Below, piece after piece: positions 163 through 30,329 of a stretch of DNA of 32,902 nt. The DNA lies in IMG/VR virus record IMGVR_UViG_3300010430_000306, positions 1-32,902 of that record. One strand, 5' to 3'. The notes beneath the pieces were generated by a model that made no database searches, was not told where the DNA came from, and worked only from the letters and a program-made list of their open reading frames with translations. Each line of letters opens with the position of its first letter. The first letter of the stretch is position 1. This DNA comes from a virus. Made by a program: the position numbers and the translations under genes.

Positions 163-365
163 GCTTTGAGGCATGGAAGCCTGACGTTCTCGTCTTTGTT
201 CCGAACAATGATGTAGAGACTTGTGATTATCAGGTTGTGTTCGAGTACAAATCACACCCCGAAGTATGGCCGGATATGGATACTGTTTTCAGGAATGAGA
301 TTGTAGACCTTGCAATATCGCAGTCAGTAGCCAACCGAGCAATACGCGACATGATTGGCGCGTAG
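159..365 (+). CDS. Hypothetical protein, 68 aa
   Basis: The start is set by AAGGGG five bases upstream and by the ATGA overlap with the DUF1353-like gene. The protein is short, acidic and soluble, with no recognised motif. The stop codon (363-365) lies inside the 18-bp promoter element at 355-372, so the gene abuts the control region of the next unit. Function unknown. Confidence 0.6.
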   Translation: MSFEAWKPDVLVFVPNNDVETCDYQVVFEYKSHPEVWPDMDTVFRNEIVDLAISQSVANRAIRDMIGA

Positions 366-399
366 TGTCCTATCTGGCTGCGTTTGTGGCTGGTAGGAT
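355..399 (+). promoter_or_regulatory. Phage-specific promoter, site 1
   Basis: Element TTGGCGCGTAGTGTCCTA (355-372), exactly 21 bases, then -10 hexamer TAGGAT (394-399); predicted start near 406. The 18-mer is identical to that of the site at 23803-23847. It would drive the plus-strand genes at 478-1439, including two probable DNA-binding or regulatory proteins. There is no normal -35 box, which suggests an activator. Confidence 0.75.
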
Positions 400-477
400 T
401 TAAAGATAACTCGGCGCTTAATTTTGAGCGCTACCGAATAAACTTACAGCGCATTGTTATGCGCAAGGGGTCTGTAA
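400..477 (+). other. Hairpin-rich 5' leader
   Basis: The transcript from site 1 would begin with two hairpins: GCGCT/AGCGC (about 413-432) and the perfect GCGCAT/ATGCGC stem with loop TGTT (about 449-464). The Shine-Dalgarno AAGGGG of the 54-aa gene follows the second one directly. The structure could affect translation; this is inferred only from base complementarity. Confidence 0.4.
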
Positions 478-642
478 ATGCTAAGAGCGTTATTTTTGAT
501 ATTGATGCTGGGGCTGGGAAGTTGGGGGTATCAAACATGGATTGCTGATCAACCTGACTATATTCAGACGCTCCAAACGCTTTACTACGGTGTAGTATCT
601 GCAACTGTGTTCTGGGGCGCTGGTTTATTCAAAAGCTCATAA
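478..642 (+). CDS. Small membrane protein, 54 aa
   Basis: The ATG follows AAGGGG with a seven-base gap, a strong ribosome site. The peptide starts MLRALFLILMLGLGSWGY and has a second hydrophobic stretch near residues 36-50 (YYGVVSATVFWGAGLF), so it should have two membrane segments, or a signal anchor plus one segment. Size and topology would fit a small holin or membrane modulator, but no family was recognised. It is the first gene after promoter site 1. Its stop overlaps the 45-bp repeat. Confidence 0.6.
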   Translation: MLRALFLILMLGLGSWGYQTWIADQPDYIQTLQTLYYGVVSATVFWGAGLFKSS

Positions 643-683
643 CAAAGAGTTAGCGAGCCTACGGTCTCGCTCAATGAGGTGTT
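639..683 (+). repeat. 45-bp leader repeat, copy 1
   Basis: Matches 22733-22777 (minus strand) at 41 of 45 positions without gaps. It begins ATAACAAAGAGTTAGCGAGC and ends CTCAATGAGGTGTT. This copy can form the hairpin AGCGAG/CTCGCT. In both places it is oriented with the direction of transcription and lies between genes. It overlaps the TAA of the upstream 54-aa gene. Confidence 0.8.
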
Positions 684-778
684 ATCTCAACGGAGGTTAC
701 TGGCTAAAGCGGATATAAGCCACCGCAGACCGAAGCCGTAGGGATATGTTATAGGGCACTACAATAATAGAGGGGATT
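643..778 (+). other. Intergenic leader of the HTH gene
   Basis: After the repeat this stretch holds no good gene. It contains a possible 14-codon reading frame beginning at the ATG in the repeat (675), an inverted repeat GGCT/AGCC near 702-720, and TACAAT near 760, which could be a -10 box but has no clear -35. The Shine-Dalgarno GAGGGG for the next gene is at its end. Confidence 0.35.
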
Positions 779-1177
779 ATGATTCTAACAGAATACGACA
801 AAGCTCAGTGTGGGCTGGCAGAAGTACCAGTAAACCGATTCTCAAGCGGTGAACATCAGATGAAGATAGAGAAGCTTAGCAAAGAGACCGGGCTATCCTA
901 TTCGACAATCAAGAACTACTTAAAGAAGATGACGGAAGAAGAAGTCCTGAAGAAAGGAAGAAACAAGAGCAACCGGCAGAGCTACGGAAGTGTGGTCTAT
1001 AAAGGTGAGGTCCATACATATCGCTCCCTGTCTGAGTTGACTGGTATCAGCAAAACTAGGCTAGGCAATCTACTAAGGAGTGGTATGTCGCCAGAGCAGG
1101 CTGTCAGGGACGCGCATAAGTACAAGATGAATGGAAGTAAGATTGTCGGGTTAAAGAAGGAGTACCGCGATGCTTAG
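779..1177 (+). CDS. Helix-turn-helix DNA-binding protein
   Basis: Two helix-turn-helix-like stretches are visible: IEKLSKETGLSYSTIKNYLK (about residues 30-49) and YRSLSELTGISKTRLGNLLR (about 81-100). The second is followed by GMSPEQAV, a form common in phage and homing-endonuclease-associated DNA-binding modules. It is basic and probably regulatory. A second in-frame start, ATG at 860 with GGTGA seven bases before it, begins right before the first helix unit and is a real alternative. It is read from promoter site 1, so it is a candidate for the activator of that promoter family (inference). Confidence 0.6.
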   Translation: MILTEYDKAQCGLAEVPVNRFSSGEHQMKIEKLSKETGLSYSTIKNYLKKMTEEEVLKKGRNKSNRQSYGSVVYKGEVHTYRSLSELTGISKTRLGNLLRSGMSPEQAVRDAHKYKMNGSKIVGLKKEYRDA

Positions 1178-1439
1178 GCTTACGACCACTATGCTGAAAG
1201 ACTTCTCTAAGATGACCGTATCCTCGTTTTGCGATAAATACGACCTAACTTCGTCACAAGTTAGAGACATTGCAAACCGTCACCCAGTAACGGTTGACGA
1301 AAGTGACCAAGAAGAGAAAAACCAAATTGCATACATTCAAGGGTCAGTAAGTAAGACCGGAGAATGCCCATACGGAATCAGGCAGGAGCGTTCATGGTGG
1401 TTTGCTGGATATTACGAGAACAACGATATTAAGGATTGA
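1170..1439 (+). CDS. HTH plus RMF-like small protein, 89 aa
   Basis: The start follows AAGGAG with a seven-base gap and overlaps the upstream gene by 8 bp. Residues 11-34 resemble a helix-turn-helix (TVSSFCDKYDLTSSQVRDIA). The C-terminal part has CPYGIRQERSWWFAGYYE, which resembles the short CPY...W..G motif of ribosome-modulation-factor-like phage proteins. The combination is unusual. It ends convergently, overlapping the end of the M15 peptidase gene by 11 bp. Confidence 0.55.
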   Translation: MLRLTTTMLKDFSKMTVSSFCDKYDLTSSQVRDIANRHPVTVDESDQEEKNQIAYIQGSVSKTGECPYGIRQERSWWFAGYYENNDIKD

Positions 1440-1854
1440 AAAAGTAAAGCTCACTCTGACCAGTTGGCTTCGTGTCGATATGAAGCCAGCTGACTTGATT
1501 CTCTACTCGTGTGAAGTACGGTATTTTATTACCCTGAAACTGGTATTCTGCTAAGTCATCCCTGATTTGCTGAGCGGTTTTATTCCTAAACTTAAGGTCT
1601 AGCGCACAGCCTTTCGAGTGCTGAGATGTGGGAGAGTAGTACTTACTCTCTGGCGTTCTCAATCCAGACTGACTGAATTCCCCGCCCCACTTCCAATCAT
1701 TGATAGTAGCAGGCCCGTAACGCTCTCTAAGCCAGTCAGCAGCTTTTAGAACGTCAGGGTCGAACATGCGCCACAATGCCTCCTCGTGCACCTCCTTGTG
1801 CATTGCAGGGCTTACGAGTTCCTCTATTGAGAAGTACTTACAGCGGTAGCTCAT
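1429..1854 (-). CDS. M15-family peptidase, endolysin candidate
   Basis: Residues SQHSKGCALD (His79, Asp86) and WLHID (His125) form the zinc-binding set of the M15 peptidases (D-Ala-D-Ala carboxypeptidase type), which cut the peptide part of peptidoglycan. The N-terminus CKYFSIEELVSPA is typical of phage M15 proteins. The ATG at 1854 is preceded by AGGAGG with a seven-base gap, so the longer open frame running into the upstream gene is not used. It is the last gene of the structural operon. A role in host lysis or in local wall opening at entry is possible; no signal peptide is seen. Confidence 0.8.
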   Translation of the reverse strand: MSYRCKYFSIEELVSPAMHKEVHEEALWRMFDPDVLKAADWLRERYGPATINDWKWGGEFSQSGLRTPESKYYSPTSQHSKGCALDLKFRNKTAQQIRDDLAEYQFQGNKIPYFTRVENQVSWLHIDTKPTGQSELYFFNP

Positions 1855-1927
1855 TTGTGACCCTCCTGACAGCGTGATAACCGAAACGCTATCACGCTGT
1901 AGATTGAGACTGTTAGGGCGTCCAGCA

Positions 1928-3373: not shown

Positions 3374-3385
3374 TGTTCTGACTCC

Positions 3386-3862: not shown

Positions 3863-5871
3863 TGTCTTGTTCCTGTGTTAGGCAATGTTTGTATTGTATC
3901 TGATTCTTCCCGCTCGGGCTGCATTCCACCAACGGTCAAACCTAGCCCGGTTGCGAGTCTAGGGTATTGCGTTTCAATGAGAACTTTGGTCTCTGGACGG
4001 ATATTAAAACCCTCTACAGCACGGCCAGCCATCGCTGTGGCTTTAGCCGATTTAGACAGCTCTTGTATCTGATTCGCTACCACAGGCCCGGCAACAGGTA
4101 TCTTGTTCAACAGGGTGAATACGCCAAGGTTTGCCGCCGCATCAATAAAGAAACCGGCTGAGCCTTTAGGAATTGCGCCAGATGGCGGAATCATTTCTTC
4201 AGCCTGTTTGCGCATTGCTTCTAGTCGTTTCAGCTCATTCTCATTGAATAAGCGTTTAATCTTTGGCTCAAGCATGTCATAACGCTTGGAGAAGGCATTG
4301 CCGCTAAACACCTTTTCACCTTGAATAGTCCGACTGGCTGCGTTGTAGCTAGAATCAAGAAGGTCAAGGATAACCTCTGCCTTCATGCTGTCTTTGGCCA
4401 GCTTCCCGCGACTACCCGCACGGTCAAGGGAGTTAACGACTGAATTGAACTTCTCTATAGGAGTAGACCTAGCCATTAGCTTGCTGTAAACCTGACTCTC
4501 TTCAATCTTTGGTATTCTACTTCCGCCGGACTTACTCGCTATCAGGTCGTTAACTAAGCCTTTCTCGTCAAACTCAGTCTTTAGCGCAACGTGTGACTGT
4601 CTGGCAGCCTTTGCAGCCATTGCCACATCTGGAGCACCATTCACCTCAATAGCCTTTGAAGCAAGCTCGAACTCATTATCTAGAGCCTCACGTATTGGAC
4701 CTACAATGCGCGATGTTTGGCCGGTAATATCCGACTGTTCTATGTCCCCTAAGCGCTTACGGAATCGCTCTTGATTAGCAATACTTAGCCTCTCAAATGG
4801 GCCTGAGTCGCTATCAAGTATTCCAAACTCTTCAAACAATCCTTTCAGAGCGTTGTATTGAGCTGTGTTTGTTGCGGAAAAGTCTCTCATTTCCCCGGCA
4901 TCTGGCATTGCTTTCTTTATCGGCGCATCAGATAGACCAACATCAATCTGTTCTGTCAGGTTCGCAAGTCTTCCATAGGCTTCCGCTCTCTTATATCGCG
5001 CCGAATTGTCACGCATACGCAGTGCATCTTTAACAGCTGCGCCAACCTCTACTGACTTCTCAGGAGACAGTGATTCGAGATAATTCTTAACCTCTCGGCT
5101 CTGTTCCAGTTTAAACAGTCGCATAGCATCACCAGCCTCACCAGACTGCTCAAGAAGAAACTGCTCTTGCTTTAATTCATCAAAGCCTTTCTGTGTGGAT
5201 CGTAGCGTCTCGCCACGAGTTAGCCTTACACCAGTATCCTGAGACCTAGTTACGCTATCTCTGACTGGTTCAGTGGCGTTTGAGCGCCTTACGGTAGCTT
5301 GAACAGGAGCAGACTTGGCACCTTGACTAATAGCCGCCATTTGACCACCAAGGCCAGCCAAGGGGGCGGCGGCTTGACCTACCTCTCCAATAGTCTCTAC
5401 ATACTCTTGACCGGCTTTAGTGCGCGGAGAATAAGTGAACTCAGAAGCCATCTTTGCGGCAAAGTTTTCAATTCTGTCAGCTGCATCCTGAGTACCAAAC
5501 TCGCCAGAACGTATCTCTTCCGCAAGACCCCTTAATGTTCCGCCAAGCATCCCAAGCGTTCCGCCTGTAGCTCCCGTAACAGTGGTTAAAGCAGCCTCAC
5601 CAGCACCGATAGCCTTCTCTCTAAAAGAAGCATCCTCTGGCGGTACGTCTGGCGCCATATAGCCTTCAATATCGGGAGCATCACCAAACCGCTCGGCATA
5701 CTGTTCCGGCGTCATAGAACCCTTAGCCGGCTCATTTACTTCGGAGTCACCTGCGCCGAAATCAGCCTCAGTTGCCAAACCAGCGGCAATAGCCTTAGCC
5801 TTTACCTGCTCCTTGGTTGTGCCTTCCGGCACATTCTCAATAACTGTTCCGTTCGGCAAGGTTACATTCAT
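3859..5871 (-). CDS. Putative DNA ejection protein, gp16-like position
   Basis: 670 aa. It begins with VTLPNGTVIENVPEGTTKEQ, a short N-terminal motif often found in phage pilot or internal virion proteins. The middle is helical and charged; near residues 575-605 there is a hydrophobic stretch (AANLGVFTLLNKIPVAGPVV) that could insert in a membrane. It is the third of three coupled genes placed like P22 genes 7-20-16, whose products leave the capsid before the DNA. Assigned mainly by position and composition. Confidence 0.6.
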   Translation of the reverse strand: MNVTLPNGTVIENVPEGTTKEQVKAKAIAAGLATEADFGAGDSEVNEPAKGSMTPEQYAERFGDAPDIEGYMAPDVPPEDASFREKAIGAGEAALTTVTGATGGTLGMLGGTLRGLAEEIRSGEFGTQDAADRIENFAAKMASEFTYSPRTKAGQEYVETIGEVGQAAAPLAGLGGQMAAISQGAKSAPVQATVRRSNATEPVRDSVTRSQDTGVRLTRGETLRSTQKGFDELKQEQFLLEQSGEAGDAMRLFKLEQSREVKNYLESLSPEKSVEVGAAVKDALRMRDNSARYKRAEAYGRLANLTEQIDVGLSDAPIKKAMPDAGEMRDFSATNTAQYNALKGLFEEFGILDSDSGPFERLSIANQERFRKRLGDIEQSDITGQTSRIVGPIREALDNEFELASKAIEVNGAPDVAMAAKAARQSHVALKTEFDEKGLVNDLIASKSGGSRIPKIEESQVYSKLMARSTPIEKFNSVVNSLDRAGSRGKLAKDSMKAEVILDLLDSSYNAASRTIQGEKVFSGNAFSKRYDMLEPKIKRLFNENELKRLEAMRKQAEEMIPPSGAIPKGSAGFFIDAAANLGVFTLLNKIPVAGPVVANQIQELSKSAKATAMAGRAVEGFNIRPETKVLIETQYPRLATGLGLTVGGMQPEREESDTIQTLPNTGTRQ

Positions 5872-11409: not shown

Positions 11410-11780
11410 GACTTATCCCTCTGCACTACCCAAGCTCTTGCATACAATCCAGAATCAACGCCGTCGAAAACGATTGTAGCGCCTTCTACAGACTGCTTAC
11501 TGATTGGGGTAGGCCTGCTTGAGTCATTGACAGATCCAGCATTGAAAGAGCCATTACCAACAGAACCTACGTTGTCACCGTTACTCGTCGTGATGGTTAT
11601 AGTTCCGGTAGTAGGGTCTGTCTTGGTCTGAACGTCAGCGCCATCATACACAACGACATAAAACTCGCTCGTTCCGTAGTCGTAATCCAATCCCTCAGCG
11701 GTGAATGAATCCACTCCGCCCGTCAAAGGAAGCACAGAAGAGCCGTTGCCGTTAATCTTGAATCTTGTCTTAGCTGCCAT
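11406..11780 (-). CDS. Ig-like virion decoration protein candidate
   Basis: 124 aa, starting MAAKTRFKINGNGSSVLPLT. The short Thr/Gly/Asp-rich strands (TGTITITTSNGDNVG) resemble immunoglobulin-like or head-fibre decoration proteins of phages. Its ATG follows the TAA of the gp4-like gene directly. No catalytic motif. Assignment is by composition and position. Confidence 0.5.
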   Translation of the reverse strand: MAAKTRFKINGNGSSVLPLTGGVDSFTAEGLDYDYGTSEFYVVVYDGADVQTKTDPTTGTITITTSNGDNVGSVGNGSFNAGSVNDSSRPTPISKQSVEGATIVFDGVDSGLYARAWVVQRDKS

Positions 11781-12583: not shown

Positions 12584-13864
12584 TCACGAGATGGTGAACA
12601 TACCGTTGCGGCTTGGGTCGCGGTTGGTCAGGCCATACCAAGTGAACAGACGCACCTTCAGAGAAAGCGTGTCAATATCACCGTCATAGGCCATAACAAC
12701 GCGAGTACCAGAAGACAGTGTTGCTGTCTCGTACTTCATGCCGCCAAGGTCGCCCCACGAGCTTACGCCAGAATCTGCATTCAGGATTTCGACAGAGTCA
12801 TTAACCCAGAAAGCATTACCGCGCTTGCTTGCGTCGATGTTCTTACGAACAATCGCTGTACCACTGGTGATCTGAGTATCAATGTTTGCATACGCCAGCT
12901 CAGCAGCATCCAGAGCGCCATCATCCAGAGCGATAGGCTTGGGATAAACCTTAATGTTGTTGCTGGTAATCTCAACAATCTTAAAGGTCATCGGTTCGCC
13001 TGTCGGGTTCTTGTCGGCAAGGCCCAGAGCATTTACACCAGTAAATTCAACCCAATCGCCTTCTTCAAAGCCAGAAGCGTCAACAAGGGCGATGTCGTCA
13101 GAGATACGGTAGTCAACCGGAACCACTTCACCAGCAACCGTCTTATTGGCTACAGGAGCCTGAGACACATCAGCAGCAACAGTGGTTGACGGAGACGCCG
13201 CACCAGTAATCGCCGGAATGAACGAACACTCATACAGGTTAGAACCTGCGGTGTTGTATGCAATCATGCCGTTCTTGTAAACGGTTTCAGGCATACCATT
13301 CATGTTTGAGCGATTGGCAATGTCGGAGCTGATCAGCTGAGCGTCACGGTCATTCAGGAAGATTGAAATACCCGCTTCAGTTGCCAGCTGGCGTTCGTTG
13401 AAGATGGTGTCAACGGTCTTGATGGCATCATAGCCAGTGTTGCCCGCAGTACCATCAACGGTAGCGTCAAAGAAAACAGAGCCGGTGTTCTTAACCAGAT
13501 TCGCAATCTGACTGTTTTGCTTAGACATCAGGCGCTTCAGTGCGGTCTGTGTCCAGTCATTCAGATAACGCTGGTCGCGAAGGTCATCCGCTCGTGGATT
13601 GGTGCCGGAGTTCTGAGGAGTGCCCAGACGCGCCGGGTAGGTCAGGTCGATAATGTCGGCATAGTTGCCAGTAGCATCCCAGCCTTCAAACGTGTTTGCT
13701 TGCTGCTCTACGCGACGCCAAATCTGGTTAGAGGCGTTTTGCAGGTCTGCACCTGAAACATCCTCCTTGCGCGCAAGAACACCCATGAGCATCTGCTCTT
13801 CGATTTGGTCAATAGCATTATTCAATGCCACTTTGACCGCTTTTGCTGTACTTACTGAACTCAT
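12584..13864 (-). CDS. Major capsid (coat) protein, P22 gp5-like
   Basis: 426 aa, very close to the 430 aa of P22 coat protein. The N-terminal third has the order of features of that family: helical N-arm, WRRVEQQANTFEGWD, a TYPARLGTPQNSGTN region and RADDLRDQRYLNDW. The HK97-type fold with an inserted domain is expected. It follows scaffold with only 16 bases between, as in P22, and a stable hairpin follows its stop. Confident from pattern and place. Confidence 0.9.
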   Translation of the reverse strand: MSSVSTAKAVKVALNNAIDQIEEQMLMGVLARKEDVSGADLQNASNQIWRRVEQQANTFEGWDATGNYADIIDLTYPARLGTPQNSGTNPRADDLRDQRYLNDWTQTALKRLMSKQNSQIANLVKNTGSVFFDATVDGTAGNTGYDAIKTVDTIFNERQLATEAGISIFLNDRDAQLISSDIANRSNMNGMPETVYKNGMIAYNTAGSNLYECSFIPAITGAASPSTTVAADVSQAPVANKTVAGEVVPVDYRISDDIALVDASGFEEGDWVEFTGVNALGLADKNPTGEPMTFKIVEITSNNIKVYPKPIALDDGALDAAELAYANIDTQITSGTAIVRKNIDASKRGNAFWVNDSVEILNADSGVSSWGDLGGMKYETATLSSGTRVVMAYDGDIDTLSLKVRLFTWYGLTNRDPSRNGMFTIS

Positions 13865-14971: not shown

Positions 14972-15016
14972 TTGGCGCAAATTGTCGATGATTATTCCAG
15001 AGGTAAAAGGTAGCCT
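14972..15016 (+). promoter_or_regulatory. Phage-specific promoter, divergent copy (moron)
   Basis: TTGGCGCAAATTGTCGAT (14972-14989), 21 bases, then TAGCCT (15011-15016). It keeps TTGGCGC and TGTC at the same spacing as the other copies but differs in the last three bases and has a poor -10. The next gene on this strand starts at 15086. The match in both parts and in the 21-base gap makes chance less likely, but this is the weakest listed copy. Confidence 0.5.
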
Positions 15017-15386: not shown

Positions 15387-17460
15387 GCACCCCTAGCCCC
15401 ATTTTTTGAAGCTCTTTGGTTTCCATGTCCGATGTGCGCTCAACAATATCGAGCAAGTCCTTGACTCGTTCAATATCGACACGCTGTAACTTAGCTAGAA
15501 TCTCAGCAGTTTCAGCTTCCTTCTTCTGCGTCTCAGCAATTGACTTAACAGAATCAAACTGACTTGTCTGCGCTCGCGTCTGGGCTGTAATCATGTCGGC
15601 TTGAGCCTTGTACATCTCAGCCTGACCGATCATCTGTTCAGCACTTGGCGGTTGGTTAGCTTGATGTTGTTGCAGCTGTTGAATCAGAAGTTTCTCTTCA
15701 TCCGTTGAAGGTGTCTTCAGTCCTGAAATCAAAGCCTGTCTATCGAAGTAGTCCTCGAAGTCTTTAGCTCCCGGTAGGTCAATCATGCTTAGCAGCATCA
15801 TGTACGCAGCCTGACCCATTGGAGTTTGTGGCCCCATAGCGCCCGCAATACTCTCTAACTTAGCCGCTGCCTCCTGCCTTGCGTCCTGATAGCGCGGGCC
15901 AATATCAGTATAAACTTCAAACTCAATGTCTGATATTTGATTCTCAACATAAGGCTCGCCACGCTCATCATAAGCAGGTCGGTTGATAATGATGTTTTCA
16001 GTTGTGTCGTCTTCATTCATGCCGACCATTTCAACTTCGTCAGTGTATATATCAGCCGCAATTGACTGGTATATCTCACCATCGCGGCGCATTGCCGTTG
16101 CTAGATTGTCCTGATAGATAAATGTCTGCATCTGGTTTTGAGCATTGGCCAGACGCAGCTGGCCTTCTGTCACACCGTCAGATACTGCATTCTCGCCAAC
16201 CGACGGGGTCACAGTGACATCCTGAACCGCTTTCTCTGTCATCTGTAGGAACGCTGTTTCAGTGGCGTTTACCGTTGGGCCTTCCATGTACCCCAACGGC
16301 TGCAATGGCAGAGGATTGCCGTCAGCGTCTTTCAGGTTAAGCATATAGTAGGGGAAGTCTGCATCCTGCGTATACATGTGCTCCCAGCCTGAAATCTGAT
16401 CCGGGGCAAAGAAAGGCTTTCGTCTCGGGCTTCGTCCTACTTGGTCAGCAATGAACGAGAACGCCATATTGTGTAAGCGTTGCGGGTCTTTAGCGCGACG
16501 CACCATGCCCTCCCAGTACTCCTGACCTTCAATGTATCGCCATTCACCGAACACAGGGACGATAGGGATATGTTTCCCGGCGACGAGTGTAGGGCCGTCA
16601 ATCAGTCCCTCGCCATCAATAATACTTTTGTATACTTCCCGTTTTTCGATAACCTTGCGGTCTGTTACCTCGTAACCCTGCTCTTCTAAGAACTTGGCCT
16701 CTTCTCCACGATTACGCATCACGGTAACGGTATCAATACCGTTAGACATGATCATAATCTTTTTCTTCTTGCGCTTTACTTCGTAGTGCTCAGCTACATA
16801 GATAAGCTCGCCACCCGAGAAAGGGAATACACCACTATTGGCCGGGGAGTGAGCATTAGAACCCGAACGCCCTTCGCAGTCGTATTCTTCACAAAGCCTT
16901 TCGTATGATTCGCGAGTGTAAGCAGTCAGAACCCCACCATAGAGAGCATCTGACTTGTCTTTTCGGCGTGCGGACGGGTCAAAGTAAACGACGTTATTGG
17001 CTTCATGGATAGGAACGCGGCGGATAGTTTGTGACGTGTCTGTATTGTCGCCCTTGTTCTCGTACTCGGTAGTTATGCGCCATGCCCCGAAGCCGGTAGA
17101 CACTTGAGAGTCGATAGCAACGTCTACAGCCTCTTTTGCCGCGTTAGTACGCATACTGGCACGGTAAATCTTTTGCAGCGTCTCAGCGGCTTCCTTGGAT
17201 GGCTTCTCACCATCCACAGCCCGATACTTAACACTGATAGGATTGGCCAGCATTTCACCCTTAACGGTTCGTAGCTGGCGGGTGATGATGTCAAATTGCC
17301 CACGGTACTCGTTATCTGAGTATTCTTCTAACTGCTCATCCCAGTGGTTGAAGTGGGCGAACATCCAATCGTCAGCGGCTCTATCTCGTGGGTCTTGCGT
17401 ATACTCAAACGCACGCTGAATCTGTTGCTTTGCTTTGTCGTGAGCGTCTATGTTGTCCAT
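15373..17460 (-). CDS. Portal protein, P22 gp1-like
   Basis: 695 aa (P22 gp1 is 725 aa). The N-terminus AFEYTQDPRDRAADDWMFAH and the block YRGQFDIITRQLRTVKGEML belong to the P22 portal family; later blocks such as AKDPQRLHNMAFSFIADQVG support it. The portal forms the 12-subunit ring for packaging and exit of DNA. The C-terminal part (Gln-rich, coiled, about 600-690) corresponds to the barrel region. It starts by ATGA overlap with the large terminase and ends with TAG, so TAG is a normal stop in this genome. Confidence 0.9.
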   Translation of the reverse strand: MDNIDAHDKAKQQIQRAFEYTQDPRDRAADDWMFAHFNHWDEQLEEYSDNEYRGQFDIITRQLRTVKGEMLANPISVKYRAVDGEKPSKEAAETLQKIYRASMRTNAAKEAVDVAIDSQVSTGFGAWRITTEYENKGDNTDTSQTIRRVPIHEANNVVYFDPSARRKDKSDALYGGVLTAYTRESYERLCEEYDCEGRSGSNAHSPANSGVFPFSGGELIYVAEHYEVKRKKKKIMIMSNGIDTVTVMRNRGEEAKFLEEQGYEVTDRKVIEKREVYKSIIDGEGLIDGPTLVAGKHIPIVPVFGEWRYIEGQEYWEGMVRRAKDPQRLHNMAFSFIADQVGRSPRRKPFFAPDQISGWEHMYTQDADFPYYMLNLKDADGNPLPLQPLGYMEGPTVNATETAFLQMTEKAVQDVTVTPSVGENAVSDGVTEGQLRLANAQNQMQTFIYQDNLATAMRRDGEIYQSIAADIYTDEVEMVGMNEDDTTENIIINRPAYDERGEPYVENQISDIEFEVYTDIGPRYQDARQEAAAKLESIAGAMGPQTPMGQAAYMMLLSMIDLPGAKDFEDYFDRQALISGLKTPSTDEEKLLIQQLQQHQANQPPSAEQMIGQAEMYKAQADMITAQTRAQTSQFDSVKSIAETQKKEAETAEILAKLQRVDIERVKDLLDIVERTSDMETKELQKMGLGVQRLN

Positions 17461-18650
17461 CAGCGCATCCTATAGCGTTTAATTGGCGGTGGCATAACCG
17501 CCTTAGGTGTTTTACTGATTATACTTGACTTGTCAAATGATACCACTATAGCGTCAAACAGGTTCGGTGATGGAATCTTCATTGTGCCGTTACTGGTCTT
17601 AACCCCACGGCGCATCTCTTCCTTGGTGTAGAAGGTAATCTTGTCAGAAGGCTTCAGCGGTATGCGGCAAGCCTCCGCCCTAAGCTTGGCTATCATTTCA
17701 GGTGAAATAGATGAGCTATCAATGGATATTAGTTCGTCAGGGTCGTGGTACTCGCCTTTAACGACAGCCTCATACGTCTTTCGGAATCGCTCGGCAACCG
17801 CTGTTATGTTCTGCGCCTTCTTGTTCTTGAATACGTCCTTGTTCTTCTTCTGCCCCTTCATATTGTAGTTTTCAGACGCTTTGAATATGGCTTCCGGGTC
17901 GTGACAAGCTTCAGAGCCTTTATACATGTAGCTCTTGATATGTTTGCCCTTGAAAGCCTTGTCCGCCTGATCCCGAAGAACTGCACCTAGCCCGTCGCAG
18001 TCCCAACCGAACGAATCACAATCAAACCCAATTGCTTCACGACAAGCGATGTCGAACGCCCTGTTAGCGTTCTCAGCATCAATCTCCTTAAGCTCCTTAA
18101 TCACCACACCATGACGGCCAGCAAATCCCTTAGCATCGTTTCCAGTGTCAGCCGGGTCATGCCCCACCACCTTAGCCCCGGTTGGCTCAAACCCTAGCTT
18201 CTTATGAGCATCAATAGCAGCATCAAACCAGTCAGCAATAATAATAGAGTCGTCGATGTCGTCGGAAAACGCACCTTTCCAGATATGATTAAAGCGGCTT
18301 TGACTCATCCGGCCATCCTCAACTTTCTCTTGGTCTTTAGCGAACTCGGTAGATAGAGACTCGTCGTGCTCAAACCAAGGGTTATCTTCATATCCGACCT
18401 TTATGATTAGATGGTATTCATCTTCATAGTATCCGTACTTATCCAAGTCGGCTTGATACGGAACGATGAACTCAGTACTCATGGCATCCGTTGAGCTTTC
18501 CGGGTTCCAGACAAACCACAACTCAGCACCCGGAACACCCCTTAATGTTGGGCCTAAAGTATCAAGTGTTTGCTGGCTTGTGCGTGCGGCTTCCTCAGAC
18601 AGAAAGAACTTATAGTTAACCGTCCCTTTCATGTCGATGATATTTTGCAT
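17460..18650 (-). CDS. Terminase large subunit, part after internal amber
   Basis: C-terminal 396 aa as an open frame from the first ATG after the amber. The ATPase Walker B (NYKFFLSEEAA) and coupling motif (WNPES) come first. The RuvC-like nuclease domain follows: GHDPADTG with the first Asp, DCDGLGAVLRDQ with the second acidic site, and NLFDAIVVSFD with the last. The frame in fact continues upstream without a break to the amber codon at 18690 (KSRGKFQFGG just before the ATG), so this ATG is internal to the protein. No good ribosome site precedes it. A separate product would lack Walker A. Confidence 0.8.
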   Translation of the reverse strand: MQNIIDMKGTVNYKFFLSEEAARTSQQTLDTLGPTLRGVPGAELWFVWNPESSTDAMSTEFIVPYQADLDKYGYYEDEYHLIIKVGYEDNPWFEHDESLSTEFAKDQEKVEDGRMSQSRFNHIWKGAFSDDIDDSIIIADWFDAAIDAHKKLGFEPTGAKVVGHDPADTGNDAKGFAGRHGVVIKELKEIDAENANRAFDIACREAIGFDCDSFGWDCDGLGAVLRDQADKAFKGKHIKSYMYKGSEACHDPEAIFKASENYNMKGQKKNKDVFKNKKAQNITAVAERFRKTYEAVVKGEYHDPDELISIDSSSISPEMIAKLRAEACRIPLKPSDKITFYTKEEMRRGVKTSNGTMKIPSPNLFDAIVVSFDKSSIISKTPKAVMPPPIKRYRMR

Positions 18651-18689: not shown

Positions 18690-18692
18690 CTA
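18690..18692 (-). other. In-frame amber codon inside terminase gene
   Basis: TAG in the same frame as both terminase parts; context is TGG TAG ATA. With any amino acid at this codon, 19136 to 17460 is a single 558-residue terminase. Possible causes: point mutation, error in the assembly, readthrough, or a suppressing host. Confidence 0.9.
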
Positions 18693-19136
18693 CCAGCGTG
18701 AAGGAACCGGAGTAAAGCCGCCCGTGGCCTGAACTTCTATCCTGTGCCTGATACCCTCATAGATTGATTCCCGAAGGCTAGTCATGCGTTCACGCAAACA
18801 AAACACTTTAGAGCCGTTGCTATTGACCTCACCAACCATAGTGTCGAAAGCCATGATTGATTTGGTACCAGCCCGCCCACCAAACAAGCATTTGTACTTC
18901 TTGTGCTTGAGTAGGAGCGGTTCTAGCTTCTCAATGACATAGATGGTCGGCTCTTCGTCCGTAGGTTTCATATTGCCTATGGTGCCCTTCCAGCGACGTA
19001 CGAAGTTAGGAACCAGCCTTCCGTCGATATTATCTACACGGTCAACCACGCCATATACAGAAGGCTCAAGTTTGCCCGCACCAGCCTGAGCGATGACTTC
19101 AAGATTGCGGGCCTTTTTAAGAAGCGGGCTAGTCAT
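18690..19136 (-). CDS. Terminase large subunit, part before amber
   Basis: 148 codons from an ATG that overlaps the small terminase stop (ATGACTAG). Contains the Walker A region CLFGGRAGTKS (residues 86-93; the usual Gly before Lys is Thr here) and the following VFCLRERMTSLRESIYEGI, typical of large terminases between Walker A and Walker B. Ends at TAG in the middle of the ATPase domain. On its own this fragment would not be an active motor. Together with the downstream frame it has normal terminase length. Confidence 0.8.
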   Translation of the reverse strand: MTSPLLKKARNLEVIAQAGAGKLEPSVYGVVDRVDNIDGRLVPNFVRRWKGTIGNMKPTDEEPTIYVIEKLEPLLLKHKKYKCLFGGRAGTKSIMAFDTMVGEVNSNGSKVFCLRERMTSLRESIYEGIRHRIEVQATGGFTPVPSRW

Positions 19137-19658: not shown

Positions 19659-19888
19659 TCTCCATCTTCAAGCTTTTTTGCGGTCAACAGAAGCACCCGC
19701 ATGTTGGCTTTATGTTCTTCACGCTTCTGCCTACGCTCTTCTGTAAACCTCAATACCATTATTGCACAGCCAATAATTGCAACGCACATGGTCACAAACT
19801 CAGAAGGGTTATCAATTATCCATGTCCCCATCACGCCTAGAGCGGAAAGCGCGCCGCCGGTTGCGTACTTGTCGTCTATGGTATTCAA
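19652..19888 (-). CDS. Putative holin, class II type
   Basis: 78 aa with two membrane segments (about 10-26 and 31-48) and a charged, basic C-terminus (FTEERRQKREEHKANMR). This is the plan of class II holins, which open the inner membrane at lysis. The start is TTG at 19888, sharing TTGA with the upstream stop and with GGGGG placed six bases before it, so an inefficient start codon is paired with a strong ribosome site. A terminator follows. Function inferred from topology. Confidence 0.6.
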   Translation of the reverse strand: MNTIDDKYATGGALSALGVMGTWIIDNPSEFVTMCVAIIGCAIMVLRFTEERRQKREEHKANMRVLLLTAKKLEDGEG

Positions 19889-20328
19889 CCCTTACCCCCA
19901 TGATTACGGCTGAAGTGAGGACGCCAACGCAAAAGAGAGCCAGCACTACTTCGGAGAACGTCACCGACATTTCTGCACCCGTCCATAGTAGCTAAGAGAA
20001 TCAATTCCATGATAGTGATGCCAATCATGATGTTTGTCTGTATTTCAGTGATAACCCACAAGTACGAGGCAACGACAGCCAGAGTGATTGAGTAAAGCCA
20101 CATGAGTGACCTAGATAGAGGGGTGCCGTGATGCTTGTACTCCAATGCGGCAAGAGTACACATAGCTAGATTGATTACCGCCAGACTTATAATTGTTCGC
20201 TCAAAGCTGAAGCCAGAGACTTCAATGCCGTAGGCTATGAACAGACCTATTGACGCCATGATTGCCATACCCTTACCAGTGGCAAGGAATATGACGAACG
20301 CTATAGCGGCAAACATCAGGATAATCAT
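19885..20328 (-). CDS. Polytopic membrane protein, 147 aa
   Basis: Four to five hydrophobic segments (about 2-17, 22-38, 44-61, 74-93, 97-113) followed by a basic, soluble tail rich in Arg (RSSAGSLLRWRPHFSRNHGG). Coupled by ATGA to a 37-aa basic peptide and by TTGA to the holin-like gene. A helper of lysis or a membrane modifier of the host is possible; no family recognised. Confidence 0.6.
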   Translation of the reverse strand: MIILMFAAIAFVIFLATGKGMAIMASIGLFIAYGIEVSGFSFERTIISLAVINLAMCTLAALEYKHHGTPLSRSLMWLYSITLAVVASYLWVITEIQTNIMIGITIMELILLATMDGCRNVGDVLRSSAGSLLRWRPHFSRNHGGKG

Positions 20329-20438
20329 GCGTTCTTCTTGCGGTCTTTCATGTTAGTTACAAAACCTACAGCTACCTTCTTCTGCTTCTTAGCCTTCGGT
20401 TTTGCTTTGGATGGTACTTTGCCTGCTTGCTTGGCCAT
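20325..20438 (-). CDS. Very basic small protein, 37 aa
   Basis: A gene of 38 codons including stop: MAKQAGKVPSKAKPKAKKQK then KVAVGFVTNMKDRKKNA. About 14 Lys/Arg in 37 residues and no acidic residue except one Asp. Its start shares TAATG with the upstream gene and its stop shares ATGA with the downstream gene, so it is fixed in the operon. It probably binds nucleic acid or an acidic partner. The double overlap is the main reason to accept it. Confidence 0.65.
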   Translation of the reverse strand: MAKQAGKVPSKAKPKAKKQKKVAVGFVTNMKDRKKNA

Positions 20439-20653
20439 TATATACGCCCCTTAAACGCTGCTATGAAGTCGTCACGGTCTGACTTGAGCATTGATACAGC
20501 GTTGTCGTCTAGTTGTGTGTCAGTGCGCTTAGATAGCTTCTCAGCCTGTTCTATAACGTAGTCAAACAACAACTCAGCTGCATGACGCTTGATATATCCG
20601 ATTATCACGAACTTTGCCGCAATGCCTAATGGTCTGATTAACTGAGATAACAT
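20438..20653 (-). CDS. Hypothetical protein, 71 aa
   Basis: ATG 20653 is preceded by GGAGGG with a six-base gap, so the longer upstream frame (to 20704) is not used. The N-terminus MLSQLIRPLGIAAKFVIIGY is hydrophobic and could lie on or in the membrane; the rest is helical and charged (EQAEKLSKRTDTQ). Second gene of the membrane-protein block. Function unknown. Confidence 0.6.
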   Translation of the reverse strand: MLSQLIRPLGIAAKFVIIGYIKRHAAELLFDYVIEQAEKLSKRTDTQLDDNAVSMLKSDRDDFIAAFKGRI

Positions 20654-20738: not shown

Positions 20739-21242
20739 TCACTTAACTAAATTGGCCGCGTACTCGACAAGCCACACTTTTGGAGCTATCCATATCTGCA
20801 CCCATGACATAGACGGAAGGATACAAATAGCGGATATAACTGCGGAAGAAGAAAATACACCTCCTAAAATCGCTTGAGCCTCGTCGCTATATCCACCATT
20901 CTTAGCCTTTCTGACTTCTCTGTCGTACTCGATAGATGTAACCATCCCAAACCCACGAAACTTAGTCCAAGTCTCCCCAGATTCTCGCTGACTGCTAAGT
21001 TCATCAAGTCTCTCCTTATCCTCAGTGCGCTCTTTGAATATGACATTATAAATCATGTACAACGAGCCAATCAGTACGAAAAGGCACACAAAGGAAAGGA
21101 ATGCGCCCTTCACCATATACCAGTTCATAAGCTGCTCTACGTACTCAGGAATTTCAGCCTCAAGAAACCCAGTAGCCGAATCAATCCCATCAAGTGATTT
21201 TGTAATCAGTCGCTCAAGTGCTTGCTGTAAGTTTTCGTTCAT
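20739..21242 (-). CDS. Membrane protein, 167 aa
   Basis: An N-terminal amphipathic part (ENLQQALERLITKSLDGID) is followed by a strong membrane segment at 45-69, a charged cytosolic middle (70-120), a second segment at 126-143 and a Trp-rich end (SWVQIWIAPKVW). Single-gene unit: promoter site at 21288-21332 upstream, terminator immediately downstream. Could be lysis-related or act on the host envelope; no family recognised. Confidence 0.65.
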   Translation of the reverse strand: MNENLQQALERLITKSLDGIDSATGFLEAEIPEYVEQLMNWYMVKGAFLSFVCLFVLIGSLYMIYNVIFKERTEDKERLDELSSQRESGETWTKFRGFGMVTSIEYDREVRKAKNGGYSDEAQAILGGVFSSSAVISAICILPSMSWVQIWIAPKVWLVEYAANLVK

Positions 21243-21287
21243 TTCCTATCTCCGTTGTCTGGCTGCGTTGTGCTAGCCAGTGATTAC

Positions 21288-21332
21288 ATATTAGCTAACC
21301 ATGATTGCCAGTGGTAGGACACAATAGGCCAA
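21288..21332 (-). promoter_or_regulatory. Phage-specific promoter, site 2
   Basis: Minus strand: TTGGCCTATTGTGTCCTA (21315-21332), 21 bases, TAATAT (21288-21293). The 5' leader of about 40 bases leads to the 167-aa membrane protein. Element and spacing match the other copies. Confidence 0.75.
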
Positions 21333-23002: not shown

Positions 23003-23206
23003 TTAGACTCCGCGAGTATTTCTTCGTACCAGCTCGTTAAAGACTGCTTCATTTCCATCAAGTCCAATCTCTGGCATTAAAGCCTGAACCTTGTTAGCTG
23101 CGTCAATAATGTCCTGAACTGAAATTCTTTTACCGCTTATCGCCTTCTTCAGCGAAAGTATTGAACCACCAAGTGAAAAAGCGCGATTTGTAGTTACTGT
23201 ATTCAT
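23003..23206 (-). CDS. Hypothetical protein, 67 aa
   Basis: ATG 23206 has GAGGAG seven bases upstream. Mostly helical, with SLGGSILSLKKAISGKRISV and a later AANKVQALMPEIGLD; possibly a compact nucleic-acid or protein-binding domain. First gene after promoter site 3, followed by the structured non-coding stretch. Unknown function. Confidence 0.6.
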   Translation of the reverse strand: MNTVTTNRAFSLGGSILSLKKAISGKRISVQDIIDAANKVQALMPEIGLDGNEAVFNELVRRNTRGV

Positions 23207-23262
23207 TTCCAATCTCCTCAGATGTTTACCGCCTTGGCTTCATTGCCTCAGTCAGTAAGTTC

Positions 23263-23307
23263 ATATTAGCGCCTGTGTTCTGGTGTGTATAGGACACTAT
23301 GAGCCAG
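23263..23307 (-). promoter_or_regulatory. Phage-specific promoter, site 3
   Basis: Minus strand: CTGGCTCATAGTGTCCTA (23290-23307), 21 bases, TAATAT (23263-23268). The TAG stop of the zinc-finger-like gene upstream lies inside the element, as at site 1. Leads the operon 23206 to 21889. Confidence 0.75.
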
Positions 23308-23541: not shown

Positions 23542-23775
23542 TTAGCGGGTGGCCTCCTTCGCCGCCTTGTACACTTCTTTCATTTCTGCGATTGTCCAGC
23601 AATCAACACCTACGGTCATCATGTCTTCCTCTTCAGTAATCCATTCAAATCCGTATTCTTCAACCAACCAGTTTCCGATTTTTTCTGCCTTAGCCTTGTC
23701 CGCTTCGTTACCTTCTTTGAATGTCAGGTTGATTACTGAGCCTTCGTTGCGGTCTGAGTTGAATGTTGCTTTCAT
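23542..23775 (-). CDS. Hypothetical acidic protein, 77 aa
   Basis: Starts MKATFNSDRNEGSVINLTFK, has an acidic patch EWITEEEDMM and a helical end (IAEMKEVYKAAKEA). Small alpha-beta protein, probably soluble. It is the first gene after promoter site 4, with AAGGAGAT in front of the start. Unknown function. Confidence 0.6.
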   Translation of the reverse strand: MKATFNSDRNEGSVINLTFKEGNEADKAKAEKIGNWLVEEYGFEWITEEEDMMTVGVDCWTIAEMKEVYKAAKEATR

Positions 23776-23802
23776 GTGTCTATCTCCTTAGTTGATGTAA
23801 AC

Positions 23803-23847
23803 ATTATATCTACTGGTTTCGGGATAGGGTAGGACACTACGCGCCAA
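23803..23847 (-). promoter_or_regulatory. Phage-specific promoter, site 4
   Basis: Minus strand: TTGGCGCGTAGTGTCCTA (23830-23847), 21 bases, TATAAT (23803-23808). Perfect -10, and the element is identical to site 1. It begins three bases after the helicase stop and drives the 77-aa and zinc-finger-like genes. Confidence 0.8.
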
Positions 23848-25173: not shown

Positions 25174-25226
25174 CCTATCTCCTCAATAACACACGCCAGC
25201 ACGAGACCTTCGGCTAGTGTGCTGCG

Positions 25227-25682
25227 TTATACAGCAACCCAAACCTCGGTTGTAACCGGCTTAATCTGCTTTGTTTCAGTTTTCCCACAATAGCGGCATG
25301 TGCGCGTGTCGATGCCATTACTCCAGTTGTGTGCGTAGTCGCCGTGAATCGCGCATACGCCAATTTCAAAATATCTTTCCCAAAACTGGTCGGTAATATC
25401 AACCCAATTTCGAGTGTCATGGCATGGTCCGTATGCCCAGCAATCTAAGTTCGATCCGTGCAAGCAAAGATTTCTAAGCTGTCTTGCGTGTATCCAGTCG
25501 CCATCACGCTCAAAACCGATGTATAAAACTGTCTTTTCTGCATCAATACCGCTAACGCAATTCCATGTGCCAGACCATATTTTCATGGCTTCCGGGCGTT
25601 TCTTGGCCCACCGATAAAGCTGCCAGCTAAAGAAATCGCTTTTACCTTTTTCTTTCGGTTTTATCTGATCTGCTGTAATCAC
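25227..25682 (-). CDS. Hypothetical protein with zinc-ribbon-like end
   Basis: I choose the GTG at 25682 (CAGGAG six bases upstream). The longer frame starts at ATG 25754, which would sit exactly at the predicted RNA start of promoter site 5 and have no leader. The 151-aa protein has many Trp and Cys; the C-terminal CAIHGDYAHNW ... CRYCGKTETK resembles a zinc ribbon found in phage accessory proteins. The helicase gene follows in the same unit. Function unknown. Confidence 0.55.
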   Translation of the reverse strand: MITADQIKPKEKGKSDFFSWQLYRWAKKRPEAMKIWSGTWNCVSGIDAEKTVLYIGFERDGDWIHARQLRNLCLHGSNLDCWAYGPCHDTRNWVDITDQFWERYFEIGVCAIHGDYAHNWSNGIDTRTCRYCGKTETKQIKPVTTEVWVAV

Positions 25683-25760
25683 ATCAATCTCCTGTTGCTG
25701 TATAACAACGCAAGGCAGTCGGACGCTTGCAGCGCCGCTGCTCGCAAGTTTCATCTATCA

Positions 25761-25805
25761 ATCCTACCGCCACCACTCCCGCAACGGTAGGACACTTAGC
25801 GCCAG
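25761..25805 (-). promoter_or_regulatory. Phage-specific promoter, site 5
   Basis: Minus strand: CTGGCGCTAAGTGTCCTA (25788-25805), 21 bases, TAGGAT (25761-25766). It starts one base after the end of the upstream gene and would drive the zinc-ribbon gene and the helicase. Confidence 0.75.
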
Positions 25806-25806
25806 T

Positions 25807-26016: not shown

Positions 26017-26027
26017 AACCCACCATT

Positions 26028-26381
26028 TCAGTAATTTAACTCTAACGTCAGGACTAGCGCGGAACCGCTCATAATCACTCTAAAAGGCTTTAGCCTGTAA
26101 TACGGTGCAACTATAGGGATTACGTCAGAATAGTCGTCACGGGACGTACAGCGCCTTGTAAGTACGCAATCGTAGTCATACCCTGTTGCTGCTCCGTATA
26201 TCACACCCCAGTCGCCGTAGTTGTCGTCATATCCAACGAACCAAGACCGAACGTTGTAGCTGTTGGTCATAGTCCCGGCTATGTAACGATTGTACTGTAC
26301 TGCTATCAGCTCATTGTCGTTGTTTATGTCCGACGTGTTGAGATGAGTAGTAATCAGTCCGGCTGCTAGGGTCAGGCTCAT
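26028..26381 (-). CDS. Hypothetical protein, 117 aa
   Basis: Starts MSLTLAAGLITTHLNTSDIN, coupled by ATGA to the upstream gene, with GGAG two bases before the start region. Tyr- and Asp-rich (GYDDNYGDWGVIYGAATGYD), beta-type. No family recognised. Confidence 0.5.
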   Translation of the reverse strand: MSLTLAAGLITTHLNTSDINNDNELIAVQYNRYIAGTMTNSYNVRSWFVGYDDNYGDWGVIYGAATGYDYDCVLTRRCTSRDDYSDVIPIVAPYYRLKPFRVIMSGSALVLTLELNY

Positions 26382-27605: not shown

Positions 27606-27616
27606 AACCTATCCCC

Positions 27617-27835
27617 TTAAACCTTGTTACCGGTGCCAATCTCTGGCAGTGGCCACCATTCTGTTACTACCCAAGACTGACCGTTAAACCCGTCAATCAC
27701 CCAAAACTCACTACCGTGATAGTAGCGACCAGTCTGAATACCACTGACACCCTCAACTTTCACGAGAACGTCAACGCTTGGCTTTGCTAACCTTTCAAGC
27801 TCTCCCATTTTTTCTTTAAGCTTTGGTAGTGACAT
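27617..27835 (-). CDS. Hypothetical protein, 72 aa, DUF551-like end
   Basis: Starts MSLPKLKEKMGELERLAKPS; a beta region (VKVEGVSGIQTGRYYHGSEF) ends in VTEWWPLPE, a motif like the end of DUF551 proteins. First gene after the intragenic promoter site 6 and directly behind the initiator gene. GGAGATAGG lies before the start. Confidence 0.55.
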   Translation of the reverse strand: MSLPKLKEKMGELERLAKPSVDVLVKVEGVSGIQTGRYYHGSEFWVIDGFNGQSWVVTEWWPLPEIGTGNKV

Positions 27836-27845
27836 ACCTATCTCC

Positions 27846-28784
27846 TCAATTAAAACCTTTCCTCAGCACGTCAATATGCTTACGGGCTTTCTCACGTTCC
27901 TCGGGACTGAGCTGCTCTTTGCTAGCTCTCATGCCCGGAATCGTTATCGGTGAGTCAACATTAGTGGATTGGCGGGCCGATGGGTAGGACGGATTGGGCC
28001 AACCTTGCTTCTGGTTATTTAGTCCTTTGACACTCCACTCCTCGGTGAAGTGCTCATCAGGGCCGAAGAACGTAGACATCTGCATGACATACACAGTATT
28101 AAGGTTGCCAGCAGCCCTGACGTACTCGATATACCGTTTCATGCCCTCTGCCATGTCTCGCCATGTGTAATCCTTCAGGCGGGCTTTGCATGCCTTGTAG
28201 GCGCTTCTCTTTGGATTGCTACCAGAGCGCGGGGGCTTGTTCTTCCATATCCACTCGAACTCTTCAGGATACTCAAACCCCTTTTTCGGTTTGTCAGGTG
28301 ATGGCTCTTTAGGCTGGTCATTAGAATGATTATTTCTGCAACTATCGTCAGATGGTTGATTATTACTCTCTGTTGTACTCTCTGTTGTACTCTCTGTATT
28401 AGTTTGGCGCTTTCCGCCATCACAGTTTGGCGCTTCTGTTTCATCCAGTTTTGCGCTTTCCGCCATACTGACAACATCTAATGCCTGCTTCAGAGCTTTT
28501 GCGTTTACACGATAGTTCACTTTTGCTGGAACGCCCCGCAAAACCTCTTCAAGAACACCTATATCCTTTAGCCTCTTCCTAGCGGTTTCTTGCTCTCTTC
28601 TTGTTAATCCAGTCTCCTCCTCCCATTCGTTAGCGGTTTTGTAGAAGAAACCATCTTTACTGGTAACTCTGTTCTGCCAGTAGCAGGCTTGAGAAAGAAG
28701 AAGTGCGCCAGTTATACCACAGCCAAGTGATACAAAAGGACGTTGAAACGCAACCGGACGGTCAAACATTTTTATTAAACTCAT
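27846..28784 (-). CDS. Replication initiator-like winged-helix protein
   Basis: 312 aa. The N-terminus FDRPVAFQRPFVSLGCGITG leads to a winged-helix domain (about 30-100) with KTANEWEEETGLTRREQETA and a following KRLKDIGVLEEVLRG, the pattern of phage replication and DnaD/O-type proteins. A Ser/Thr/Asn-rich linker (about 125-165) joins a C-terminal helical domain (FEWIWKNKPPRSGSNPKRSA onward). Such proteins bind the origin and load helicase. The linker DNA holds short tandem repeats (CTCTGTTGTA units) that could mark an origin, as in lambda O; this is inference. AAGGAT is seven bases before the start. Confidence 0.7.
   Translation of the reverse strand: MSLIKMFDRPVAFQRPFVSLGCGITGALLLSQACYWQNRVTSKDGFFYKTANEWEEETGLTRREQETARKRLKDIGVLEEVLRGVPAKVNYRVNAKALKQALDVVSMAESAKLDETEAPNCDGGKRQTNTESTTESTTESNNQPSDDSCRNNHSNDQPKEPSPDKPKKGFEYPEEFEWIWKNKPPRSGSNPKRSAYKACKARLKDYTWRDMAEGMKRYIEYVRAAGNLNTVYVMQMSTFFGPDEHFTEEWSVKGLNNQKQGWPNPSYPSARQSTNVDSPITIPGMRASKEQLSPEEREKARKHIDVLRKGFN
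27958..28002 (-). promoter_or_regulatory. Phage-specific promoter, site 6, intragenic
   Basis: Minus strand: TTGGCCCAATCCGTCCTA (27985-28002), 21 bases, TAATGT (27958-27963). It lies inside the end of the initiator gene, so coding pressure may explain its slight differences. It would drive the genes from 27835 downward separately from the initiator. Confidence 0.6.
28355..28402 (-). repeat. Short tandem repeats in initiator linker
   Basis: The plus strand shows CTCTCTGTTGTA twice in a row and then CTCTCTGTATTA, a 12-bp unit repeated about three times; the protein shows TTES repeated. Located in the linker part of the initiator gene, where lambdoid phages have their origin iterons. Confidence 0.65.
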
Positions 28785-28802
28785 AACATAAATCCTTTTA
28801 AA

Positions 28803-29584: not shown

Positions 29585-29590
29585 AAAATC

Positions 29591-29618
29591 ATTATACCAC
29601 CAAAGGTCTCCGTTTCAA
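29591..29618 (-). promoter_or_regulatory. Strong sigma-70 promoter
   Basis: Minus strand: TTGAAA (29613-29618), 16 bases, TATAAT (29591-29596). Near consensus in both boxes. Faces the GIY-YIG gene across a leader of about 130 bases. The -35 box lies inside one copy of the direct repeat, so a protein bound there would compete with polymerase. Confidence 0.65.
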
Positions 29619-29644
29619 TCGGAACCCTTCTCCGTTTCAAACGG
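29607..29644. repeat. Direct repeat TCTCCGTTTCAA, operator-like
   Basis: TCTCCGTTTCAA occurs at 29607-29618 and 29629-29640, 22 bp apart (two helix turns), and each copy is followed by a CGG at the same distance. One copy covers the -35 box. Probable tandem binding sites for a regulator of the GIY-YIG gene. Confidence 0.6.
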
Positions 29645-29674
29645 TATTGGGTAGCACCACAGAGGCGCTAGGCA

Positions 29675-29695
29675 TAAAAAAAGCCCCGAGGGGCT
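29675..29695 (-). terminator. Rho-independent terminator
   Basis: Minus strand: AGCCCC-TC-GGGGCT followed by TTTTTTTATG, just after the stop of the 184-aa membrane protein gene. Clear and typical. Confidence 0.8.
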
Positions 29696-29702
29696 TACTA
29701 GG

Positions 29703-30257
29703 CTATTTAGAGATACACCACCATACAAATAAGAACAAAACCAAAAAACCACCACCAAAATGCAAAAGCATATCAAAAGCGAAACGAAACCCAACCATAT
29801 AGGCCATATAAGCGAACCAAACAACCCACATTAACAATGTCACAGCTATCATTGAATACTTAAAACCATCGGTCGCTGCCTCAGTTTTAGTCTTCCGTTT
29901 CTCAAGGTTTGCTCCAGATAAGCACCACTTAGAGCTATCATCACGATACCAGCAGTATCTATAAACCTTTTGACCAACTGCTACAGCTGTTCGCACCTGA
30001 CCGTACCACATGTCTCCGTCCTTTGTTTTTGCTGTGATAGCGCAATTGTGAGTTGTTACAAGCAACCCATCGTTTGTTAAACATATACCATCGTCAACAA
30101 CAGTCAGCTCTATATTGTGATGTCCACTCTCTTTTGGTCTAAGATGGTCAGAGATAACACCAATAGACCACAGGATTATACAAAACACAGCAATAAAGGA
30201 ATGAACTCTTGCGTCTGATTTTCTCACGTCTTCTTTGTCTACTTCTTGGTTTTTCAT
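29703..30257 (-). CDS. Membrane protein with periplasmic domain, 184 aa
   Basis: TM1 at about 20-37, a soluble domain of about 90 residues with four Cys (HHNIELTVVDDGICLTNDGL; VYRYCWYRDDSSKWCL) that could form disulfides outside the cell, then TM2 (133-154) and TM3 (163-182) near the end. GAGGAGGTGG precedes the start. It forms its own unit: promoter site 7 upstream, terminator downstream. Could act on the host envelope, for instance in superinfection exclusion; no family recognised. Confidence 0.6.
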   Translation of the reverse strand: MKNQEVDKEDVRKSDARVHSFIAVFCIILWSIGVISDHLRPKESGHHNIELTVVDDGICLTNDGLLVTTHNCAITAKTKDGDMWYGQVRTAVAVGQKVYRYCWYRDDSSKWCLSGANLEKRKTKTEAATDGFKYSMIAVTLLMWVVWFAYMAYMVGFRFAFDMLLHFGGGFLVLFLFVWWCISK

Positions 30258-30284
30258 CTTTCCACCTCCTCAGTTTGTGAAACC

Positions 30285-30329
30285 ATTGTAGCGATACAGG
30301 GCGAGAGTGGGTAGGACAAGACGGGCCAT
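30285..30329 (-). promoter_or_regulatory. Phage-specific promoter, site 7
   Basis: Minus strand: ATGGCCCGTCTTGTCCTA (30312-30329), 21 bases, TACAAT (30285-30290). Twelve bases after the upstream terminator T run; drives the 184-aa membrane protein. Confidence 0.75.

Follow-up and report, generated by a model that had tools for sequence, protein, structure and literature searches.

A repeated promoter-like element and a candidate two-HTH activator in a group of P22-like phages

Textbook lambdoid phages rely on antitermination. Among the phage activator sites that have been described, the repeats of lambda CII (TTGC-N6-TTGC) flank the -35, the MotA box of T4 is centred near -30, and the site of P2 Ogr and P4 Delta is centred near -55. 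In phage Mu the Pm promoter has a -10 but no -35, in whose stead stands a 16-bp element centred at -43.5 for Mor, a protein of 129 aa (PMC4390567). The Mu system is the nearest well-studied parallel to the element family described here, for in both a -10 is present, a -35 is absent and an activator element, putative in our case, replaces it. However, Mor binds an inverted repeat as a dimer and serves a single promoter, whereas here the site is asymmetric, is found seven to nine times in each of the longer records, and has a protein with two HTH domains as its candidate activator.

The window, that is, the whole stretch of DNA analysed, is an IMG/VR virus contig of 32,902 bases, in which the coat, scaffold and portal proteins match those of the P22 families; it also encodes a DnaB helicase. 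It is probably truncated, because base 1 falls inside a gene whose full-length homologue in two related records, G020 and G022, has 158 aa. No near relative was found among 50,697 phage records, and the window gave no Rfam match.

The other described systems resemble the element in part. Like the middle promoters of T4 under MotA (and AsiA), the sites are many per genome and combine a box in place of the -35 with a normal -10, but the box centre lies near -42 here and not near -30. Ogr and Delta likewise are small phage activators that serve several late promoters with the sigma70 polymerase, but their site near -55 has another sequence. As for lambda CII, to which the preliminary description had compared the element, the analogy proves to be weak: TGGC and TGTC do stand ten bases apart, as the TTGC repeats of CII stand one turn apart, but TGGC-N6-TGTC does not flank the -35 position but precedes it, the element stopping at the point where a -35 would start, and both dyad and direct-repeat matches in the consensus are poor. 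Moreover, none of the seven records searched contains a Mor domain (PF08765; control matched in B. subtilis), a CII domain (PF05269; control matched in E. coli and Caulobacter) or an Ogr_Delta zinc finger (PF04606; control matched in E. coli). A literature search of partial coverage found no described promoter of such a kind, and we regard the element system as a further instance of a strategy already known.

The seven sites of the window

From the sequence of the window, seven close copies and one divergent copy of an 18-bp element had been reported before TANNAT-type hexamers, and this observation is borne out in part. The seven sites lie as follows.

355-372 (+): element TTGGCGCGTAGTGTCCTA; -10 TAGGAT at 394-399 (+); predicted +1 A at 406; downstream is the rightward operon 478-1439, with a 54-aa ORF and two HTH proteins (779-1177 and 1170-1439)
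21315-21332 (-): element TTGGCCTATTGTGTCCTA; -10 TAATAT at 21288-21293 (-); predicted +1 A at 21281; upstream of 20739-21242, followed by lysis, terminase and structural genes
23290-23307 (-): element CTGGCTCATAGTGTCCTA; -10 TAATAT at 23263-23268 (-); predicted +1 A at 23256; precedes 23003-23206
23830-23847 (-): element TTGGCGCGTAGTGTCCTA; -10 TATAAT at 23803-23808 (-); predicted +1 A at 23796; immediately 3' of the DnaB gene, with a leader of 21 nt to 23542-23775
25788-25805 (-): element CTGGCGCTAAGTGTCCTA; -10 TAGGAT at 25761-25766 (-); predicted +1 A at 25754; precedes 25227-25754
27985-28002 (-): element TTGGCCCAATCCGTCCTA; -10 TAATGT at 27958-27963 (-); predicted +1 A at 27951; within the 3' end of the replication gene 27846-28784, next start at 27835
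30312-30329 (-): element ATGGCCCGTCTTGTCCTA; -10 TACAAT at 30285-30290 (-); predicted +1 A at 30278; directly after a terminator hairpin, with a leader of 21 nt to 29703-30257

These seven have the coordinates and strands that had been given for them, and each stands exactly 21 bp before a TANNNT hexamer. The pattern TGGC-N7-GTCCTA-N21-TANNNT occurs 7 times in the window against 0.00 expected from dinucleotide shuffles, among which not a single shuffle contained even one site. In a matrix built from the seven, their own scores range from 29 to 35 bits, while the next best position of the window reaches 12.7 and the maximum on five shuffled windows is 16. The supposed divergent copy at 14972-14989 (+) was rejected as a member of the family, since its score of 9.7 is at background and below that next best place; it lacks GTCCTA, and its hexamer reads TAGCCT.

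The former statement that the sites always face a gene start is nearly right. Leaders measure 21-116 nt. The 27985 site is located inside a gene, and the predicted +1 of the 25788 site coincides with the ATG of the listed ORF 25227-25754; a downstream GTG is therefore the likelier start of this ORF. Besides the letters already pointed out, the C at position 7, the CC after GTCCTA, the G at -14 and the A at the predicted +1 are conserved as well. It had also been claimed that no -35 box is present, and in fact the -35 position reads TACCnn, which is not TTGACA-like.

The element spans about -51 to -34 with the trailing CC extending to -32, and a centre at about -42 is the usual location of class II activators. 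As in class II-like promoters, a TANNNT is present at every site (demanded by the search in the relatives), most sites have an A at the predicted +1 about 7 nt further on, and no -35 hexamer stands at 16-18 bp.

A terminator-like hairpin is found at 30330-30362 (-) of the window, and also upstream of the early leftward element in G020, G022, G044 and G051. Its stem sequence varies among the phages, followed by a conserved TTTTTTATGCCTG[AC]AA and then directly by the element.

Related phages and restriction of the element

As the preliminary description had proposed, related phages were scanned, and the element recurs in five related IMG/VR records. A scan of the viral collection with the 21-bp spacing yielded two multi-site records, G020 and G022, and a second scan that allowed a gap of 20 bp added G044, G051 and G053, giving a total of 39 sites in six records together with the window. 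The gap to TANNNT is 21 bp in 24 sites and 20 bp in 15, so that the exact spacing formerly stated holds throughout the window but not throughout the relatives. The predicted +1 is an A in 34 of the 39 sites, among them all seven of the window. No variation is seen among the 39 in GGC, in GTCCTA or in those -10 positions that the search defined, which is partly built in because the search of the relatives admitted no more than one mismatch in the core and demanded a TANNNT; there is a preference for C7, C19 and C20 and for G at -14. Nothing in the search, in contrast, called for the A at +1, the C7, the CC behind the core or the shortness of the leaders. Most sites are 15-120 nt upstream of a start codon, with a few longer leaders of up to 271 nt.

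The sites also occupy orthologous places. For example, the 3' end of the replication gene and the early leftward promoter just after the terminator (30312 in the window) both carry a site in the window, G020, G022, G044 and G051, and the place after dnaB (23830 in the window) carries one in the window, G020, G044 and G051. The divergent rightward promoter, the place before erf and the end of the small terminase gene correspond as well. At several orthologous positions the flanks are unrelated and the element is kept. We also considered the element as a recombination hot spot, since 17 of 31 related pairs show a switch of homology there, but rejected the idea, as element-free gene starts match or exceed this frequency: switches occur at 43/62 of them, or 36/55 after stricter filtering, against 14/28 and 15/29 at the element.

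Outside of these six records the element is nearly absent. It was not found in G001, the closest capsid relative (coat 65% identical), nor did any gapped pair stand out as an alternative repeated element in that record. A stringent version of the pattern has two lone matches in 84,980 prokaryote species genomes (257 billion bases), and none of 79 other phage loci, found by means of the ParB-like protein of the window, contains the element. Therefore the element belongs to the phage group and not to the host. The 79 ParB-like relatives in other viral contigs are mostly 55-83% identical, and among these element-free loci one weak match to the two-HTH protein described below was seen, without sites; the ParB-like gene is a widely shared module.

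Candidate activator and competing readings

Clustering of predicted proteins identified a protein of 101-121 aa with two predicted HTH domains in G020, G022, G044, G051 and G053 but not in G001. In other words, each of the five relatives with sites has the gene, and G001 lacks both the gene and the sites, though the presence/absence contrast depends on this single element-free relative, and phages as closely related as these may share gene and element by co-inheritance alone. A search of the viral collection with the alignment of the protein returned only G020, G022, G044 and G051, all of them known site carriers, and tblastn in the 50,697 phage records gave no match. In G020 (L073:5770-6099, minus strand) and in G051 the gene directly follows a promoter of the family, and in G022 and G044 it is the third gene behind one. 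No clear homologue was found in the window; synteny would place the gene beyond 32,902, in a stretch of a few kb that seems to be missing before base 1.

The AlphaFold model of the protein has two three-helix domains (helices 13-21, 27-33 and 39-49; 66-77, 82-88 and 93-107), at a modest confidence with pLDDT 72 and pTM 0.41 from four sequences. Its fold matches are weak; in the PDB they include two-module DNA binders such as the Tc3 and SETMAR transposase domains and Myb, and small phage HTH proteins match as well; none of the Foldseek matches in the PDB reached E 0.001, and a profile of the protein against the sequences of solved structures gave nothing significant. At L091:830-1489 (+) of G044 the two-HTH unit is duplicated in tandem as one chain of 219 aa, for which four HTH domains are predicted.

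The sequences show the element family, its geometry, its confinement to one phage group and the co-occurrence of the two-HTH gene; from these we infer that the sites are promoters, that the two-HTH protein binds them and that it activates transcription there. The reading that we favour, with a probability somewhat better than even, is that they are sigma70-type phage promoters whose -35 is replaced by a site for a phage activator, likeliest the two-HTH protein. Specifically, a host sigma70-type RNA polymerase would read the promoters, and the phage activator, bound at its site (consensus TTGGCgCrwwgTGTCCTACC, centred at about -42 with the 21-bp gap or -41 with the 20-bp gap), would recruit polymerase to the -10, so that transcription would begin at the A seven bases past the hexamer. 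Each of the two three-helix domains may read a part of the asymmetric site. In four of the five relatives the early operon with the gene stands behind one of the family's own promoters, so that the activator would enhance its own synthesis by positive feedback; it would also turn on most early, replication and late-leading operons. Accordingly worded, the earlier interpretation is supported in part: a family of promoters throughout the phage, served by an activator that the phage encodes, has good support at the level of sequence from the six related records, the fixed -10, the +1 A and the missing -35, and further by the near-absence from prokaryote genomes and the co-occurring two-HTH protein, while its eighth site is not supported, the likeness to CII is weak and an altered polymerase finds no support. 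What counts against this best explanation, besides the lack of the gene in the window, the possible co-inheritance and the modest model, is that the first synthesis of the activator is left without account if all its promoters need the activator; sigma70-like matches near the two-HTH gene are weak in G022 and G051, and there are none in G020 and G044.

Among the alternatives, the one that survives best, though we think it unlikely, keeps the same promoter class and takes the two-HTH protein for a bystander early gene, some other unrecognised phage protein being the activator. Several of these phages do have further small proteins in common, the window has its own two HTH proteins behind the 355 promoter, and the two-HTH gene was not found in it. 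However, those HTH proteins of the window are without a match in G020 or G022, a shared 64-aa helix-turn-helix-like protein occurs in the element-free G001 too, and the two-HTH protein is thus the sole DNA-binding candidate that tracks the element.

Improbable to a further degree is that the element is the operator of a phage repressor silencing many promoters. Operators that recur at one set position over several promoters, whichever the strand, are in keeping with it, and an early autoregulated HTH gene would suit a repressor as well as an activator; yet neither a -35 nor a TGn extended -10 remains for basal activity, and the site of a repressor needs no fixed distance of 20 or 21 bp to the -10. 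Still less probable is that the element is read by a regulator of the host or by one of its alternative sigma factors: promoters that have to fire early require a factor already there at infection, but the -10 is an ordinary TANNNT, the element is limited to one phage group, and the stringent pattern has two lone matches in 257 billion prokaryote bases. A phage polymerase or sigma factor recognising the entire element, in line with the altered polymerase once suggested, would suit the strict sequence and spacing but is very improbable in view of the one-base variation in spacing, the sigma70-like -10 and the lack of a Sigma70_r2 match (PF04542) in all seven records (control matched in 10 genomes). 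The search for a single-subunit polymerase (RNA_pol PF00940) matched neither in the records nor in its control and speaks for neither side.

Returning to the two-HTH protein as activator, if the reading is true, a single small activator would govern nearly all transcription in a lineage of P22-like phages, unlike the antitermination of lambdoid phages. The reading also predicts dozens of exact start sites, names a candidate protein and lends itself to tests by single-base changes. It is possible, at slightly less than an even chance, that we see here an undescribed activator family, namely a two-HTH protein of about 110 aa with an asymmetric site that replaces the -35, serving most operons from the early to the late ones, its own included, and tolerating both 20 and 21 bp to the -10. 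Small two-HTH proteins without an assigned role are common in phages, and a proven case would suggest a role for some of them.

Further features of the window and its relatives

Besides the element, imperfect palindromes that are 45-70 nt long, follow the pattern xxATAAC...GTTATxx and resemble the attC of integrons are located at the ends of small genes and beside some promoters of the family. They are found at 407-460 (+) in the window, 19758-19813 and about 20165-20222 in G020, 20131-20195 and 20438-20493 in G001, 13734-13777 in G022, 11704-11750 in G044 and 5748-5808 in G051. Compared with shuffles their excess is modest and confined to some records, for example 2 against 0.4 in G020 and 4 against 0.3 in G001.

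Several genes of the window merit a mention. The large terminase lies in two frames at 17460-18650 and 18690-19136 (-), where G022 has a single ORF of 562 aa; the split is either a frameshift or an assembly error. The product of 1170-1439 (+) has an N-terminal HTH-like stretch with a weak match to a PHROG late transcriptional activator (E 0.02), and its C-terminal motif CPYxxRxxxxWWxxGY resembles that of ribosome modulation factor. At 30550-32807 (-), a gene judged by eye to be of the PAPS/sulfate-reductase type adjoins the ParB-like gene, and at 26028-26381 (-) a short protein matches a PagP-like outer-membrane protein in PHROG (E 6e-17).
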